Shown here: positions 16,729 to 37,514 of the stretch, one piece after another | How the letters are laid out: each line of letters begins with the position of its first letter | How positions within the stretch are numbered: position 1 is the stretch's first letter | Source of the DNA: Gammaproteobacteria bacterium | GTDB lineage: Bacteria; Pseudomonadota; Gammaproteobacteria; Eutrophobiales; Eutrophobiaceae | Direction of reading: 5' to 3' | NCBI GenBank assembly: GCA_016193395.1 | Contig: JACPSH010000009.1 | Location: 1-49,934 of the forward strand | Length of the DNA: 49,934 bases | The notes under the pieces: model-generated | The model's database searches: none | What the model was told of the DNA's origin: nothing | The model's input: the letters and a program-made list of their open reading frames with translations, nothing else | Position numbers and translations under genes: made by a program

Positions 16729-17841
16729 ATGACCCACTACAATGACAGCAGCGCTCACCAGCATGACGCGCCGGCGTGCACGGGCATACTGGTCACCAAC
16801 CTCGGGACGCCCGAGGCGCCCTCGGCGAAAGCCGTGCGCCGCTTCCTGGCGGAATTCCTGAGCGACACGCGGGTCATCGAACTCCCGCGATGGTTGTGGT
16901 GGCCGATCCTGCACGGGATCATCCTGCGCCTGCGGCCGGCAAGGGTGGCGCGAGCCTACCAGAGAATCTGGGCGGACGAGGGATCGCCGCTGTACGTGCA
17001 TTCGCGGCGCCTGGCGGCGGCACTGGAATCGCGCCTCGTCTCGCGCCTGCACGATCCCGTCCGGGTGGAACTGGGCATGCGTTATGGGCGGCCATCCATC
17101 GCCTCGGCGCTTGACAAGATGCGGCACGCGAACGTGCAGCGGCTGCTCGTTCTGCCCCTATACCCGCAATATTCGGCCACGACCACGGGCTCGACTTTCG
17201 ACGTCGTTACCCGCGAACTGCAAGGCTGGCGCTGGGTGCCGGAGCTGCGCTTCGTCAACCATTACCATGATGCCGAGGGTTACATCGACGCGCTGGCGCA
17301 GAGCATCTCCGCGCACCGGGCCGCGCATGACCGGCCTGACCGCCTGTTGTTCTCCTTCCATGGCCTGCCACGGCACTACTTCCTGGCCGGCGATCCTTAT
17401 TATTGCCATTGCCACAAGACCGCCCGGCTGGTCGCCGATCGGCTTGCGCTGCCGCAGGAATCGTGGGCCGTATCGTTCCAGTCGCGTTTCGGCCCGCGCG
17501 AGTGGCTGAAACCGTACACGCAGAAACAGCTGGCGCAATGGGCAAGGTCGGGCGTGCGGCACGTGCAGGTGATCTGCCCGGGGTTCGCCGCCGATTGCCT
17601 GGAGACGCTGGAGGAAATCCAGATCGCAAACAAGGAAACCTTCCTCGAGGCAGGCGGCAGCCAGTTCTCCTACATACCCGCGCTGAACGATCAGGCCAGC
17701 CACGTCGATGCGCTGCTCGGTATCATCGATCGTCATTGCCGCGGCTGGAAAAAACACGGTGCGGATACTTCCGCGGCGGACTCGCAGCGCGAACTGCAGG
17801 AGACGAAACAGCGCGCGATCAAACTCGGCGCGCAACAGTAA
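16729..17841 (+). CDS. hemH: Ferrochelatase
   Basis: Inserts ferrous iron into protoporphyrin IX in the last step of protoheme synthesis. 370 aa. The N-terminal GILVTNLGTPEAP, the porphyrin-cleft motif LPLYPQYSATTTGSTFD, the catalytic His in LLFSFHGLPRHY and the metal-path/Glu region PGFAADCLETLEEI are all present. The first 15 residues are poorly conserved His/Asp-rich sequence. A short Ala/Glu-rich tail follows the conserved C-terminus. It stands alone, followed by a 570-nt repeat-rich gap. The respiratory genes at 40-48 kb need its product. Confidence 0.96.
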   Translation: MTHYNDSSAHQHDAPACTGILVTNLGTPEAPSAKAVRRFLAEFLSDTRVIELPRWLWWPILHGIILRLRPARVARAYQRIWADEGSPLYVHSRRLAAALESRLVSRLHDPVRVELGMRYGRPSIASALDKMRHANVQRLLVLPLYPQYSATTTGSTFDVVTRELQGWRWVPELRFVNHYHDAEGYIDALAQSISAHRAAHDRPDRLLFSFHGLPRHYFLAGDPYYCHCHKTARLVADRLALPQESWAVSFQSRFGPREWLKPYTQKQLAQWARSGVRHVQVICPGFAADCLETLEEIQIANKETFLEAGGSQFSYIPALNDQASHVDALLGIIDRHCRGWKKHGADTSAADSQRELQETKQRAIKLGAQQ

Positions 17842-18412: not shown

Positions 18413-19606
18413 TCAGATGATTCCGGAATTTCGCAGATCGTCGATCTCTTCGCGGCTGAAGCCCAGCAGGCGTTCGTAAACTTCCGCGTTGTGGGCGCCG
18501 AGATCGGGACCGGGCCAATGGATCGCGCCTGGCGTCTCTGACAGGCGGGGGAAGACATTCTGCATCTTCAGCATTTTGAAGACCGGATGTCCGACGTCGA
18601 CGATGCTGCCACGCGCCTGGAAGTGCGGATCGGCAAGCATGTCCGGCGCGCGGTAGATTCTGCCCGAAGGTACACCGTGATTTTCCAGGTGCGCCAGCAA
18701 TTCCGTGCTCTGCCAGCCGCCGGTCCACGCGGTGATCAGTTCATCCAGCCCCTGCTGATGGATGCCCCGCGCATCGTGAGTCCGGTATCGCTCATCATCC
18801 GCAAGCGCCACCTGCCCCATGGCTTCGCACAGGCGCCTGAACACGGAGTCCTGATTCGCGCCGATCAGGATCATCCGTCCGTCGGCGGTCGGATAGACAT
18901 TGGACGGGGCGAGCCCAGGCAGTATGGCGCCCGTGCGCTCGCGCACCCGGCCGCCCTCGGTGTATTCGGGTACCAGGGATTCCATCACGCCGAGCACCGA
19001 CTCGTAGATCGCGGAATCCACCACCTGCCCGCGGCCACTGCGATCGCGCTCGCGCAGCGCCGCCAGGCAGCCGATGCAGGCGAACATGGCCGCGAGCGAA
19101 TCGCCGATGCTGATGCCAGCGCGGCTTGGCGGCACGGCTGGATCGCCGCAGACGTAACGCAGGCCGCCCATGGCCTCGCCAATCCCGCCGTATCCCGCGC
19201 GCCCGGCATAGGGTCCCGCCTGGCCGTAGCCGGAAACCCGCACCATGATCATCTCCGGCCTGAGTTCCCGCAGTTCGCGGTAACCGAGGCCCCATTTCTC
19301 CATCGTGCCCGGGCGGAAATTCTCAAGCATGATGTCCGCCCGCCGCGCAAGATCCCTCGCGATCTCCTGACCGCGCGGCGTGCGGACATCCAGCGTGATG
19401 CATTTTTTGTTGCGCGCGATGATCGGCCACCAGACCGGCAGGCCGCGGCCCCAGCCCCGCATCGGATCGCCGTGTTGCGGCAACTCGATCTTGATGACTT
19501 CGGCGCCGAGATCCGCCAGCAGTTGTCCGCAAAACGGGCCGGCGATGAGCTGGCCGAGCTCGATGACGCGGAGGCCGTAGAGTGGACCGGTGGGGGAGTC
19601 ATTCAT
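18413..19606 (-). CDS. CaiB/BaiF family (type III) CoA transferase
   Basis: Family III CoA transferase of 397 aa, moving CoA between carboxylic acids; the acids cannot be predicted. The N-terminal block LRVIELGQLIAGPFCGQLLADLGAEVIKIE is characteristic, and the CoA-binding and catalytic regions NFRPGTMEKWGL and VDSAIYESVLG (catalytic Asp) are present. The start is MNDSPTGPLY; the frame is open another 106 codons upstream, but that sequence has no similarity and overlaps yjbQ. It follows yjbQ with an 8-nt gap and is probably the last gene of the operon 21262-18413. The role together with an exporter and a CULT protein is unclear. Confidence 0.92.
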   Translation of the reverse strand: MNDSPTGPLYGLRVIELGQLIAGPFCGQLLADLGAEVIKIELPQHGDPMRGWGRGLPVWWPIIARNKKCITLDVRTPRGQEIARDLARRADIMLENFRPGTMEKWGLGYRELRELRPEMIMVRVSGYGQAGPYAGRAGYGGIGEAMGGLRYVCGDPAVPPSRAGISIGDSLAAMFACIGCLAALRERDRSGRGQVVDSAIYESVLGVMESLVPEYTEGGRVRERTGAILPGLAPSNVYPTADGRMILIGANQDSVFRRLCEAMGQVALADDERYRTHDARGIHQQGLDELITAWTGGWQSTELLAHLENHGVPSGRIYRAPDMLADPHFQARGSIVDVGHPVFKMLKMQNVFPRLSETPGAIHWPGPDLGAHNAEVYERLLGFSREEIDDLRNSGII

Positions 19607-19614
19607 GCTTGCCG

Positions 19615-20031
19615 CTAATCTCCATACACGGTGAGGGTCATTCGGCGCACGTGCGGTTGCAGGCGGTGTTCCCAAAGATAAATTCCCTGCCACGTTCCGA
19701 GAATGCAGCGGCCGCCGCTGACGGGCAGACTGATGCTGTTCTGCGTCAGCACGCTGCGCACGTGCGCCGGCATGTCGTCCGGCCCCTCGGTCACGTGCCG
19801 GAACAGACGGTCGCCGTCCGGAGCGAGCCTCGCCATGAAGCGCTCCAGATCGGCGCGCACCGAGGGGTCCGCGTTTTCGCACAGCATGAGTGAAGCGCTG
19901 GTATGCTCCAGGAAGACGTTGCACAGTCCGTGACTGATGCCGGAGCCGCGCACAAAAGCATTGACCTCGGCGGTGATCTCGATGCTGCCGCGGCCGGTCG
20001 TCGTGATTTCGATCTGCTCCTGTCTGACCAT
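19615..20031 (-). CDS. yjbQ: YjbQ family protein (UPF0047, secondary thiamine-phosphate synthase-like)
   Basis: 138-aa protein of the UPF0047/YjbQ family. Members show weak thiamine-phosphate synthase activity when overproduced, but the true role is unknown. The conserved motif FLEHTSASLMLCENADPSV, the GPDDMPAHVRSVL block and the C-terminal GTWQGIYLWEHR are all present. The start MVRQEQIEIT lies 2 nt after the CULT-gene stop, so the two are tightly coupled. An upstream Met at 20139 is inside the CULT gene and was rejected. Confidence 0.93.
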   Translation of the reverse strand: MVRQEQIEITTTGRGSIEITAEVNAFVRGSGISHGLCNVFLEHTSASLMLCENADPSVRADLERFMARLAPDGDRLFRHVTEGPDDMPAHVRSVLTQNSISLPVSGGRCILGTWQGIYLWEHRLQPHVRRMTLTVYGD

Positions 20032-20033
20032 GA

Positions 20034-20456
20034 TCAGGCCGTCCGGCCGGCCTGCGCGATCAGACGCTCGAGTATCAGACCATAGAACCGCGCCGCGCCG
20101 CTGAACAGCCAGCCCAGGTGGCCGCCGCAGCCGCCGCACGCGGCGATCCGCCAGGCGCAGCCCGAAAACCAGGTATGTTCCGGCGTCGCGCGGCCGAGGG
20201 TTTTACAGCCCGGCGCCTCTGCAAAGCAGCCAAAATTGAAGATCACACCATGAGGATTGCTGCGGGTGTGCGCATGATCGCCCTCGACGGCTATGCGCTG
20301 TGATTCGTCGGTGATAAACCGACCGCAGCTCCGGCAACAGAGTTGCTTCCGGAACTCCGTACCGGTCTCCTGCGCCGCCGGACGCGATTGGGCCGCAGTC
20401 CTGGCCGACGTGGCATCCAACCACAGTGCCGGTTGCAGCGCAGCCGGTAGGTTCAT
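20034..20456 (-). CDS. CULT-domain (cereblon-like thalidomide-binding fold) protein
   Basis: A 140-aa protein with a single CULT domain, the fold of the cereblon C-terminus; single-domain bacterial homologues such as Magnetospirillum MsCI4 are known. Zinc ligands: Cys41-x2-Cys44 and Cys107-x2-Cys110. The ligand cage is His94, Trp96, Trp102, Trp116, Phe118; the spacing 2-6-14-2 equals human H378/W380/W386/W400/F402. GRFITD, NPHGVIFNFGCF and the C-terminal FYGLILERL are family blocks. The ATG overlaps the exporter stop (ATGA, 20453-20456). The cellular ligand and role of bacterial CULT proteins are unknown; uridine and cyclic imides bind in vitro. Confidence 0.92.
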   Translation of the reverse strand: MNLPAALQPALWLDATSARTAAQSRPAAQETGTEFRKQLCCRSCGRFITDESQRIAVEGDHAHTRSNPHGVIFNFGCFAEAPGCKTLGRATPEHTWFSGCAWRIAACGGCGGHLGWLFSGAARFYGLILERLIAQAGRTA

Positions 20457-21262
20457 GACGGATATACAAGCCTGAGGCCGACCAGAAACAGAAAAACAGC
20501 GAAGGCGCGTTGCAGGCTTGCCGTGGGCAGCGCGTGGGCGATGCGCGTTCCCAGGGGAGCGGCAAAAACACTCACCGTTGCGATCAGCAGGGCCGCCGGC
20601 CAGTAAACAAAACCGGTCGCGCCCGGTGGGAGTCGAGGGTCGCCCCACCCGGCGGCCACCATGGCGACGGTCCCGGAAACCGCCAGCGGGATCCCGCATG
20701 CGGAGGACGTGGCCACCGCGTTGCGTATGTTGACATTGCACCAGAGCAGAAACGGCACGGTCATGGTCCCACCGCCGATCCCAAACAGGGAAGAGAGTGC
20801 GCCGATCACGGCCCCGGCACAAGAAAGCCCGGGCAGACCCGGCAGCCGTCCGTGCGCCGCCGGGTTGGGCCCCCACGCGAGGTGAACGGCGACCAGGCAC
20901 TCGAACACGCCGAACATCAGGCGCAGGGTGCTGCCGGCAAGCTGGTCCGCGATCCACGCACCGGCCGCCGCCCCGGTGAGAATCCCCGGCGCGAGCGGCG
21001 CGACGAGCGTCCAGAGTACGGCGCCGCGGCGATGATGGGAGAGCGCGGAGGAGGCCGAAGTGAAGATGATGCTGGCCAGGGACGATGCGACCGCGAGATG
21101 CATCGCCACGTCGGGCGGGATCAACTGCAGATGGAAAAGGAACAGCAGGACCGGAACGATAATCAACCCGCCGCCGATCCCGAGCATTCCGCCGAACAGG
21201 CCCGCCACGGCCCCCAGCGCCGCGTAAAGCCCTGAGGCGAGGAGATCCGGAGCGGCGGACAT
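20453..21262 (-). CDS. Sulfite exporter TauE/SafE (TSUP) family permease
   Basis: Inner-membrane protein of 269 aa with about eight hydrophobic segments arranged in two homologous halves. The first half has LFGGMLGIGGGLIIVPVLLF and the second LSSLFGIGGGTMTVPFLLW, the paired GIGGG signatures of the TauE/SafE/TSUP family. Members export sulfite, sulfoacetate, thiosulfate or other organic anions. It is the first gene of a tight operon with the CULT gene (4-nt overlap), yjbQ and a CoA transferase. A sulfur-anion role would suit a sulfur oxidiser, but the substrate is not shown by the sequence. Confidence 0.92.
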   Translation of the reverse strand: MSAAPDLLASGLYAALGAVAGLFGGMLGIGGGLIIVPVLLFLFHLQLIPPDVAMHLAVASSLASIIFTSASSALSHHRRGAVLWTLVAPLAPGILTGAAAGAWIADQLAGSTLRLMFGVFECLVAVHLAWGPNPAAHGRLPGLPGLSCAGAVIGALSSLFGIGGGTMTVPFLLWCNVNIRNAVATSSACGIPLAVSGTVAMVAAGWGDPRLPPGATGFVYWPAALLIATVSVFAAPLGTRIAHALPTASLQRAFAVFLFLVGLRLVYPS

Positions 21263-21409
21263 CGCGGGATATTTGCTACATTATTAGTCGGGCCCTACGG
21301 CAATTATTGCACAGCGCCGCGGTGCGCCACTTGGGGCCACAACCGAAGAACTCACCAGGGCAACGATCCGGATCCATGCATGCAGACTGCTGACCTTGCC
21401 GGGCCCGGC

Positions 21410-23407
21410 ATGAACACTCGATATCGGAACGGCTGCCTGTGGGGCCTCACGCTGCTGTTGCTTGCCGCCATGCCCGCTGCGTGGTGCGCGGACGAGGAGG
21501 CCCGCCTGCAGGAGCAACGCAGGGAGTTCCTGCAGGCGCAACGGGCATTGCGCACGGGCGATATCAGGTCGTTCAAACGGCTCCTGGCCGATCTGTCCGA
21601 TTACCCTCTGTATGCCTATCTACTCTATGACGTTCTGCGGGCGCGGCTGCCGACTGCCAGCCCCGAGGAAGTCAGTTCGTTCCTTGTGCGCTTTGGCGAC
21701 CTGCCCCGGGCAGAGGATCTGCGCAGCGAGTGGCTGCGGACACTGGCCAGGCGCGGCCGGTGGCAGGCGTTCCTGACTTTCTACGCACCACAGACCGACA
21801 CGACATTGCAGTGTTACCAGCTCCTGGCGCGCATCCGGACCGGAAGCCGGGCCTATCTGCTGGAAGACGCCCGCACGCTGTGGTTGTCTCCCCGATCGCA
21901 GCCGTCCCAGTGCGACGAAGCCTTCGAGATGCTGTACGCGAGCGACCTGATGACCCACGAACTGGTCTGGTCGCGCATCAGGCTCGCAATGGACGAGGGA
22001 GAAACCGGCCTTGCGAGAAACCTCGCTTCCCGCCTGCCGGCGGGGGACCAGCGGTGGGTGGGGCGCTGGATCGCGATCTACCAGAATCCCGCCAGGGGCA
22101 CGCTGGACCCCGGGCTCGAGGACACGGAGATCGCGCGGGCTGCGCTCCTGCAGGCCATGCGCCGGCTGGTGAAAATGGACGGCAACCTGGCCATCACACG
22201 CTGGCCGGCGCTGCGGTCGAGCTATGGTTTCGCTGCGGCTGAACAGGCCGAGATCGATCGGCTGCTTGCGCTGGGCGCCGCGAAGAATAACCATCCGGAA
22301 GCGAAGGATCTGCTCGGGGCGGTGCACAGCGTCGGCATCGACGAAGAGCTGTTCGACTGGCGGCTGCGCGTCGCCCTGAAAACCCGTGACTGGCGGACCC
22401 TGCTCGGGTGGACCGAGGGTGAGGTCCCGGACAAGGATCCGGTGCGGCAGAGCTGGCTGTACTGGCGCGCCCGCGCCCTGGAACAGACAGGAAACGCCGA
22501 AGACGCCTCGGCGATTTTCCACCAGCTCGCTACCGAGCGCGATTATTACGCCTTCCTTGCCGCAGACCGGATGGGAATTGCCTATGACCTGAACCACCAT
22601 CCGCTGCCGGAGGATCTGGGGGAATGGGAGCGCCTGGCGCGCATGCCGGCCGTGCAGCGCGCCCGTGAGCTGTACGTGCTCGAGATGACCACCGCCGCGG
22701 CACGCGAATGGCAGCACGCGCTGGAGGGGATGACGACTTACCAGATGCAAATCGCGGCGATGATCGCCTCCAACTGGGGCTGGCATCACCGCGCCATCCT
22801 CACCATGGTCAAGGCGCGGTCGCTGGACGACCTCGTACTGCGCTTCCCGGTGCCCTACGAGAAGCAGCTGCGCGAATACGCGGACCTGCGCAACCTGGAT
22901 CTCGCCTGGGTATATGCCGTGACGCGCGCGGAAAGCGCGTTCCTGGAAGACGCGCGCTCGCCCGCCGGCGCGCTCGGCCTCATGCAGGTGATGCCGCAGA
23001 CCGGGCGGGACACGGCCAGGAGCATCGGCCTGAGGAAATTCTCGACGCCCCAACTGCTGGATTCCGGCACCAATATCCCTATTGGCACCGCCTACCTGCG
23101 GCAGATGCTGAACCGGTTCAATGACAACGTCGTACTGGCAACCGCGGCCTACAATGCGGGGCCGGGAAACGTCTCAAACTGGATCTCGGCGCAGGATTGC
23201 ATCGAACCCGATATCTGGATTGAGCGCATTCCGTTCACGGAAACGCGCAAATACGTGCAGCGCATTCTTTATTATTCGAGCATCTACGACTGGCGCCTGG
23301 GCCAGGAGGTCGTCCCGCTGCGGGTACGCATGGCAGCCGTGTCGCCGCGCGATCCAAACCTGGTCGCCGGCCTGGGCTGCACCGGCGGCGTGGTGTCGAT
23401 GCACTGA
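21410..23407 (+). CDS. slt: Soluble lytic murein transglycosylase Slt70-type
   Basis: Periplasmic enzyme that cleaves peptidoglycan to 1,6-anhydromuropeptides. 665 aa after the signal peptide (MNTRYRNGCLWGL...AAWCA). The long alpha-helical superhelix (about 30-480) is followed by the catalytic GEWL domain with Glu508 in VTRAESAF, the motif GALGLMQVMPQTG, and TAAYNAGPGNVSNW. ATG 21410 was chosen because it gives a proper signal peptide; the upstream Met at 21380 adds ten residues before the charged n-region. The next gene starts 3 nt after its stop. Confidence 0.95.
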   Translation: MNTRYRNGCLWGLTLLLLAAMPAAWCADEEARLQEQRREFLQAQRALRTGDIRSFKRLLADLSDYPLYAYLLYDVLRARLPTASPEEVSSFLVRFGDLPRAEDLRSEWLRTLARRGRWQAFLTFYAPQTDTTLQCYQLLARIRTGSRAYLLEDARTLWLSPRSQPSQCDEAFEMLYASDLMTHELVWSRIRLAMDEGETGLARNLASRLPAGDQRWVGRWIAIYQNPARGTLDPGLEDTEIARAALLQAMRRLVKMDGNLAITRWPALRSSYGFAAAEQAEIDRLLALGAAKNNHPEAKDLLGAVHSVGIDEELFDWRLRVALKTRDWRTLLGWTEGEVPDKDPVRQSWLYWRARALEQTGNAEDASAIFHQLATERDYYAFLAADRMGIAYDLNHHPLPEDLGEWERLARMPAVQRARELYVLEMTTAAAREWQHALEGMTTYQMQIAAMIASNWGWHHRAILTMVKARSLDDLVLRFPVPYEKQLREYADLRNLDLAWVYAVTRAESAFLEDARSPAGALGLMQVMPQTGRDTARSIGLRKFSTPQLLDSGTNIPIGTAYLRQMLNRFNDNVVLATAAYNAGPGNVSNWISAQDCIEPDIWIERIPFTETRKYVQRILYYSSIYDWRLGQEVVPLRVRMAAVSPRDPNLVAGLGCTGGVVSMH

Positions 23408-37437: not shown

Positions 37438-37514
37438 GGGCCTGTAGCTCAGCCGGTCAGAGCCGCGGACTCATAATCCGTTGGTCGCAGGTTCGAGTCC
37501 TGCCGGGCCCACCA
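37438..37514 (+). tRNA. tRNA with anticodon CAU, most likely tRNA-Ile2 (lysidine)
   Basis: 77 nt with encoded CCA: acceptor GGGCCTG/CGGGCCC, D arm GCTC/GAGC, anticodon arm GCGGA-CTCATAA-TCCGT, T arm GCAGG-TTCGAGT-CCTGC. CAU could be elongator Met or Ile2. Base pairs C4-G69 and C5-G68 and the variable loop TGGTC favour Ile2, whose C34 is changed to lysidine by TilS to read AUA. A tRNA right after rpoD is common in gammaproteobacteria. Confidence 0.93.

Follow-up and report, generated by a model that had tools for sequence, protein, structure and literature searches.

The analysed window was the complete stretch of 49,934 nucleotides from a member of the Gammaproteobacteria (order Eutrophobiales, family Eutrophobiaceae), in which an open reading frame on the reverse strand at positions 20034-20456 codes for a CULT-domain (cereblon-like) protein of 140 amino acids plus stop, with the translation designated P0001. 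Directly upstream on the same strand lies a gene for a TauE/SafE-family membrane exporter of 269 amino acids (20453-21262; PF01925, E 5.8e-55), and by coordinates and sequence the two genes, which the first-pass annotation described as translationally coupled, do overlap, the exporter stop codon (TGA) and the CULT start codon (ATG) sharing the 4 bp ATGA at 20453-20456 (reverse strand). A gene for YjbQ (UPF0047, annotated as secondary thiamine-phosphate synthase) follows 2 nt after the CULT gene (19615-20031, reverse strand; TIGR00149, E 2.2e-40; PF01894), and is itself followed, on the same strand, by a gene for a family III CoA-transferase (18413-19606, reverse strand; PF02515, E 8.5e-122). 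The exporter and CULT genes are probably co-transcribed; scans for promoters and terminators yielded no signal beyond that of shuffled sequences. The surrounding region includes a divergent lytic murein transglycosylase gene (21380-23407, forward strand; PF01464 and PF14718), which by synteny almost invariably borders the block in members of the family, and a ferrochelatase gene (hemH; 16729-17841, forward strand; TIGR00109) that forms the other flank in many relatives. A single tRNA gene, tRNA-Met (CAT), was detected in the window, at 37438-37514.

Sequence comparison of P0001 with solved structures by phmmer ranked MsCI4 of Magnetospirillum first (E 4e-23), ahead of animal cereblon (about 1e-12), values that rule out a chance match and show significant similarity to the CULT core group. 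The sole match in a Pfam scan was Yippee-Mis18 (PF03226; E 3.4e-4) with 21.2 bits against a cut-off of 26.6, and a scan of NCBIfam returned no match, so that standard annotation would probably call the gene hypothetical. With no other Pfam or NCBIfam domain, P0001 corresponds to a CULT domain alone without a LON domain, and the LON-like and DDB1-binding regions of cereblon proper, the CRL4 substrate receptor, are absent from this 140-residue single domain.

An AlphaFold2 model of P0001, for which 27 aligned proteins from the order of the window served as input, reached pLDDT values of about 96-98 in the blocks spanning residues 41 to 130 of the domain, and the confidently modelled CULT domain proper, delimited by the range aligned to 4v32_B, comprises residues 37-137 (20046-20348, reverse strand), while the first 36 residues were variable and poorly modelled. 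The superposition on MsCI4 proposed in the first-pass annotation was carried out and gave an rmsd of 0.8 Å over 101 residues with a Z score of 20.1 for the MsCI4 Y101F chain with thalidomide (4v32_B), which identifies the predicted fold as the CULT beta-tent. Human CRBN chains followed with Z of about 18 and rmsd of about 1.1-1.4 Å in the best comparisons, and every one of the 50 top-ranked structural matches listed was of cereblon type. Judged from its sequence and predicted fold, the product of 20034-20456 is a bona fide single-domain bacterial CULT (cereblon-type) protein and an additional member of an already described family.

The residues expected to form the ligand pocket were conserved throughout the aligned set, which consisted of P0001 and 26 other proteins that were 30-52% identical to it. 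Invariant among the 27 were C41, C44, N67, W96, F97, W102, C107, C110, G115, W116, and F118, with P68 and hence the Asn-Pro turn nearly so. The two zinc pairs, C41-x-x-C44 (20325-20336, reverse strand) and C107-x-x-C110 (20127-20138, reverse strand), were therefore both intact across the family. The cage is made up of a segment from E93-H94-T95-W96 to W102 (20151-20180, reverse strand; human E377-W386) and a second segment, W116-L-F118 (20103-20111, reverse strand; human W400 and F402), where F118 takes the place of Tyr101 in MsCI4. Translation and alignment confirmed the correspondence of His94, Trp96, Trp102, Trp116, and Phe118 to human H378, W380, W386, W400, and F402 that had been proposed from the sequence, and the three tryptophans had the family spacing against both MsCI4 and human CRBN; the human CULT query was identical to deposited cereblon chains, and the human numbering, residue roles, and MsCI4 equivalences were taken from PMC8900816. 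Superposition on MsCI4 suggests that the three tryptophans converge into a cage, so that the predicted structure agrees with the family-wide invariance in supporting an intact ligand site. MsCI4 binds the glutarimide ring via the backbone of Phe77 and Trp79 (equivalent to H94 and W96) and via Tyr101, and in human cereblon the corresponding residues are His378 and, at the cage base, a Phe (PMC8900816). By alignment, P0001 resembles the human protein in its cage more than wild-type MsCI4 does, as both His94 and Phe118 are present.

A further conserved element was identified in the otherwise variable N-terminal tail, where the short motif LWLD (family form Y-x-F/L-D/K; 20415-20426, reverse strand) stands out by its low-entropy columns and usually ends 26 residues before the first zinc cysteine, as it does in P0001. 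The F/L and D/K columns had entropies of 0.98 and 1.38 bits compared to about 3 in the linker. A stricter form of the pattern matched 15 of the 27 family tails, where shuffling predicts 2.7, and 7 of the 24 remaining tails from the class, where it predicts 2.1; these figures are optimistic as the pattern was chosen after the alignment had been seen. It matched none of 15 homologues sampled from other classes. The entropy contrast is thus better evidence for the motif than the shuffle test, and the element resembles a docking motif on a tether.

Of the 53 genomes of the order, 30 carried a CULT homologue, as did 31 of the 370 sampled from the class and 17 of the 397 sampled across the phylum; the three samples overlap in some genomes, and several assemblies are incomplete. 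The rarity attributed to single-domain bacterial CULT proteins at first pass consequently does not extend to this lineage. The gene is mostly vertically inherited and common in the lineage, and its patchy distribution with repeated loss marks it as dispensable. A mobile or phage origin was rejected: searches of plasmid records, phage records, viral contigs, and PHROGs yielded no CULT match, which together with the conserved synteny indicates a resident chromosomal gene. A CULT tree across classes had too few columns for its deep forks to be resolved. A nucleotide-pattern search of genome contigs returned only one relative, at 40%, with an in-frame stop in the CULT frame. At L002:3896-4336, an in-frame stop in the CULT frame and an adjoining apparent transposase gene point to a possibly decaying copy; the CULT copy at L061 appears frameshifted.

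The gene block in the family of the window consists of the divergent transglycosylase gene followed by TauE, CULT, and YjbQ and often by a DUF427-cluster or ferrochelatase gene. DUF427-cluster genes (PF04248) were found near CULT, downstream, at 14 family loci (L004, L009, L010, L012, L014, L015, L021, L023-L026, and L028-L030), and not beside CULT in the window; DUF427 itself has a beta-tent fold (PMC4287342). A DUF1499 gene lies near CULT at seven family loci (L005, L006, L007, L013, L019, L026, and L030) and once in another family (L038:1926-2408), and two genomes of one genus carry an apparent glutamate-cysteine ligase gene divergent from CULT (L048:2006-3316 and L061:3-1313). Outside the family, no conserved single neighbour of CULT was detected in 1.5-kb flanks, where only small groups recurred.

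By analogy with eukaryotic cereblon, P0001 most likely serves in the cytosol as a reader of damaged or cleaved proteins whose C-termini end in a cyclic imide (aspartimide or glutarimide), although for bacteria this is speculative and we would give it a probability of roughly one half. The zinc-pinned beta-tent fold would hold the three-tryptophan cage, and the cage would accommodate an imide, lactam, or uracil ring of five or six members, hydrogen-bonded to the backbone of H94 and W96, as expected from the homology with MsCI4 and the conserved pocket. Structures of MsCI4 with deoxyuridine and with valerolactam are in the PDB. Any downstream partner of a bacterial CULT protein is likewise speculative. 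To our knowledge, bacteria have no ubiquitin-CRL4 pathway, such that the step downstream of cereblon is missing, and this counts against a reader role, as does the dispensability of the gene implied by its patchy distribution and repeated loss. The statement in the first-pass annotation that the physiological ligand is unknown can be qualified for eukaryotes, in which human cereblon recognizes C-terminal aspartimide and glutarimide (PMC12117711), and stands for the bacterial members, for which searchable papers gave no in-cell ligand and a literature search on function returned nothing beyond the structural work on MsCI4. PCMT1 has been reported to create cyclic-imide ends (cited in PMC13001092), and PIMT-family genes are present in the genome of the window; their co-occurrence was discarded as support for a cyclic-imide role since these genes are near-universal (53/53 order and 361/370 class genomes) and do not discriminate.

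Small uracil-type or imide metabolites are the alternative ligands, in which case the CULT protein would act as a metabolic sensor or scavenger of uracil-type nucleosides and related compounds instead of reading protein ends. This is possible but the less probable of the two, although MsCI4 binds uracil and uridine (PMC4287342), and has been solved with deoxyuridine (4v31), and the pocket residues are conserved in the P0001 alignment; the neighbourhoods examined contained no recurrent pyrimidine-pathway gene that was recognized, and for the eukaryotic homologue the evidence on the natural ligand is stronger for cyclic-imide ends.

A functional partnership with the exporter, in which CULT binds a ring- or sulfur-containing small molecule that is exported or else gates the exporter, ranks behind both and is doubtful. 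TauE lies immediately upstream of CULT in the same direction at 21 of 30 loci of the family (spacing -4 to about +74 nt, with the 4-bp overlap at three loci and short gaps at the rest) and adjoins it at 5 of 26 class loci outside the family, three of which also have the transglycosylase, which exceeds random placement of two genes. A loose link to sulfur is offered by a rhodanese-domain gene that follows CULT at three of the 15 loci from the other classes of the phylum (L067:1858-2280, L072:1767-2282, and L076:1837-2283; one member Pfam-checked). However, the two genes were not kept or lost together: among the 53 order genomes, 21 had both, nine CULT only, 13 TauE only, and ten neither (Fisher p 0.39, with relatedness ignored and limited power). 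When one gene is lost the other mostly stays in the block, as nine of ten inspected TauE-only loci retained the order transglycosylase, TauE, and YjbQ or HemH with CULT gone (at the tenth, L088, no further gene was found ahead of the end of the locus), and the transglycosylase is still beside CULT at seven of nine CULT-only loci. On the TauE tree, CULT presence also changes seven times, and well-supported branches force at least four of these changes; none of the 15 loci of other classes has TauE beside CULT. The linkage survey suggested at first pass therefore upheld adjacency within the family and spoke against a general association, and the exporter as an obligate partner found no support. 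The pairing is probably older than the family of the window while being neither general nor obligate, and shared ancestry of the gene block accounts for it without joint function; most simply, TauE is a neighbour in an inherited block. The functional clue that had been seen in translational coupling to the exporter is accordingly weak at best, given independent loss from one block and the scarcity of the pairing outside the family.

That P0001 belongs instead among the zinc proteins of Yippee/Mis18 or MsrB type and has no more than the look of a cage, the outcome that had been named as refuting the annotation, is barely credible and was rejected, as Yippee-Mis18 was the sole Pfam match but scored below its cut-off, the cereblon matches (about 1e-12 to 1e-23) and the fold comparison were far stronger with cereblon-type proteins filling the 50 best listed structural matches, and the cage tryptophans are invariant with a nearly invariant Asn-Pro turn. 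Overall, we favour the cyclic-imide-end reader, followed by small uracil or imide metabolites and then by the exporter partner.

An extension of the cyclic-imide reader that draws on the N-terminal motif would make the CULT protein of this lineage a quality-control adaptor, in which the cage takes proteins with cyclic-imide ends and the motif docks them to a protease or other effector via the variable linker. We regard this as unlikely; if true, it would represent a ubiquitin-free counterpart of the role of cereblon. Cyclic-imide reading in bacteria, if real, would likewise allow the origin of damaged-protein clearance by cereblon to be studied without ubiquitin. The analysis adds a lineage in which the CULT gene is common to a family best known from one crystallized bacterial member and takes away the exporter link, attractive as a clue to function but weak, and the natural Phe118/His94 cage could make P0001 a useful scaffold for drug soaking.

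Among solved relatives, the closest is MsCI4 (cereblon isoform 4, MGR_0879, of Magnetospirillum gryphiswaldense; PDB 4V2Y/4V32), which like P0001 consists of a single CULT domain with two CxxC pairs and is about 40% identical over 101-104 residues with an rmsd of 0.8-0.9 Å. Its W79, W85, and W99 correspond to W96, W102, and W116, whereas it has Phe77 and Tyr101 in place of the human-type His94 and Phe118, and the LWLD-type N-terminal motif of P0001 and many gammaproteobacterial relatives is a further difference. The thalidomide-binding domain of human CRBN shares the cage, the zinc site, and the local sequence NPHG...GR.T.EH.WF.G.AW with 31% identity over 110 positions, but P0001 is without the LON or DDB1-binding parts and has no ubiquitin ligase context. 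Yippee/Mis18 (PF03226) has the beta-tent fold and CxxC zinc pairs in common with P0001 (PMC4287342), with a far weaker sequence match that falls below the cut-off. Like P0001, the members of the bacterial CULT group I (Lupas et al., 2015; PMC4287342), from proteobacteria and one spirochete, are wholly CULT domain; that group was described as chiefly deltaproteobacterial, alpha and gamma members being few, compared to about 8% of the sampled class genomes and 57% of those of the order carrying CULT here.
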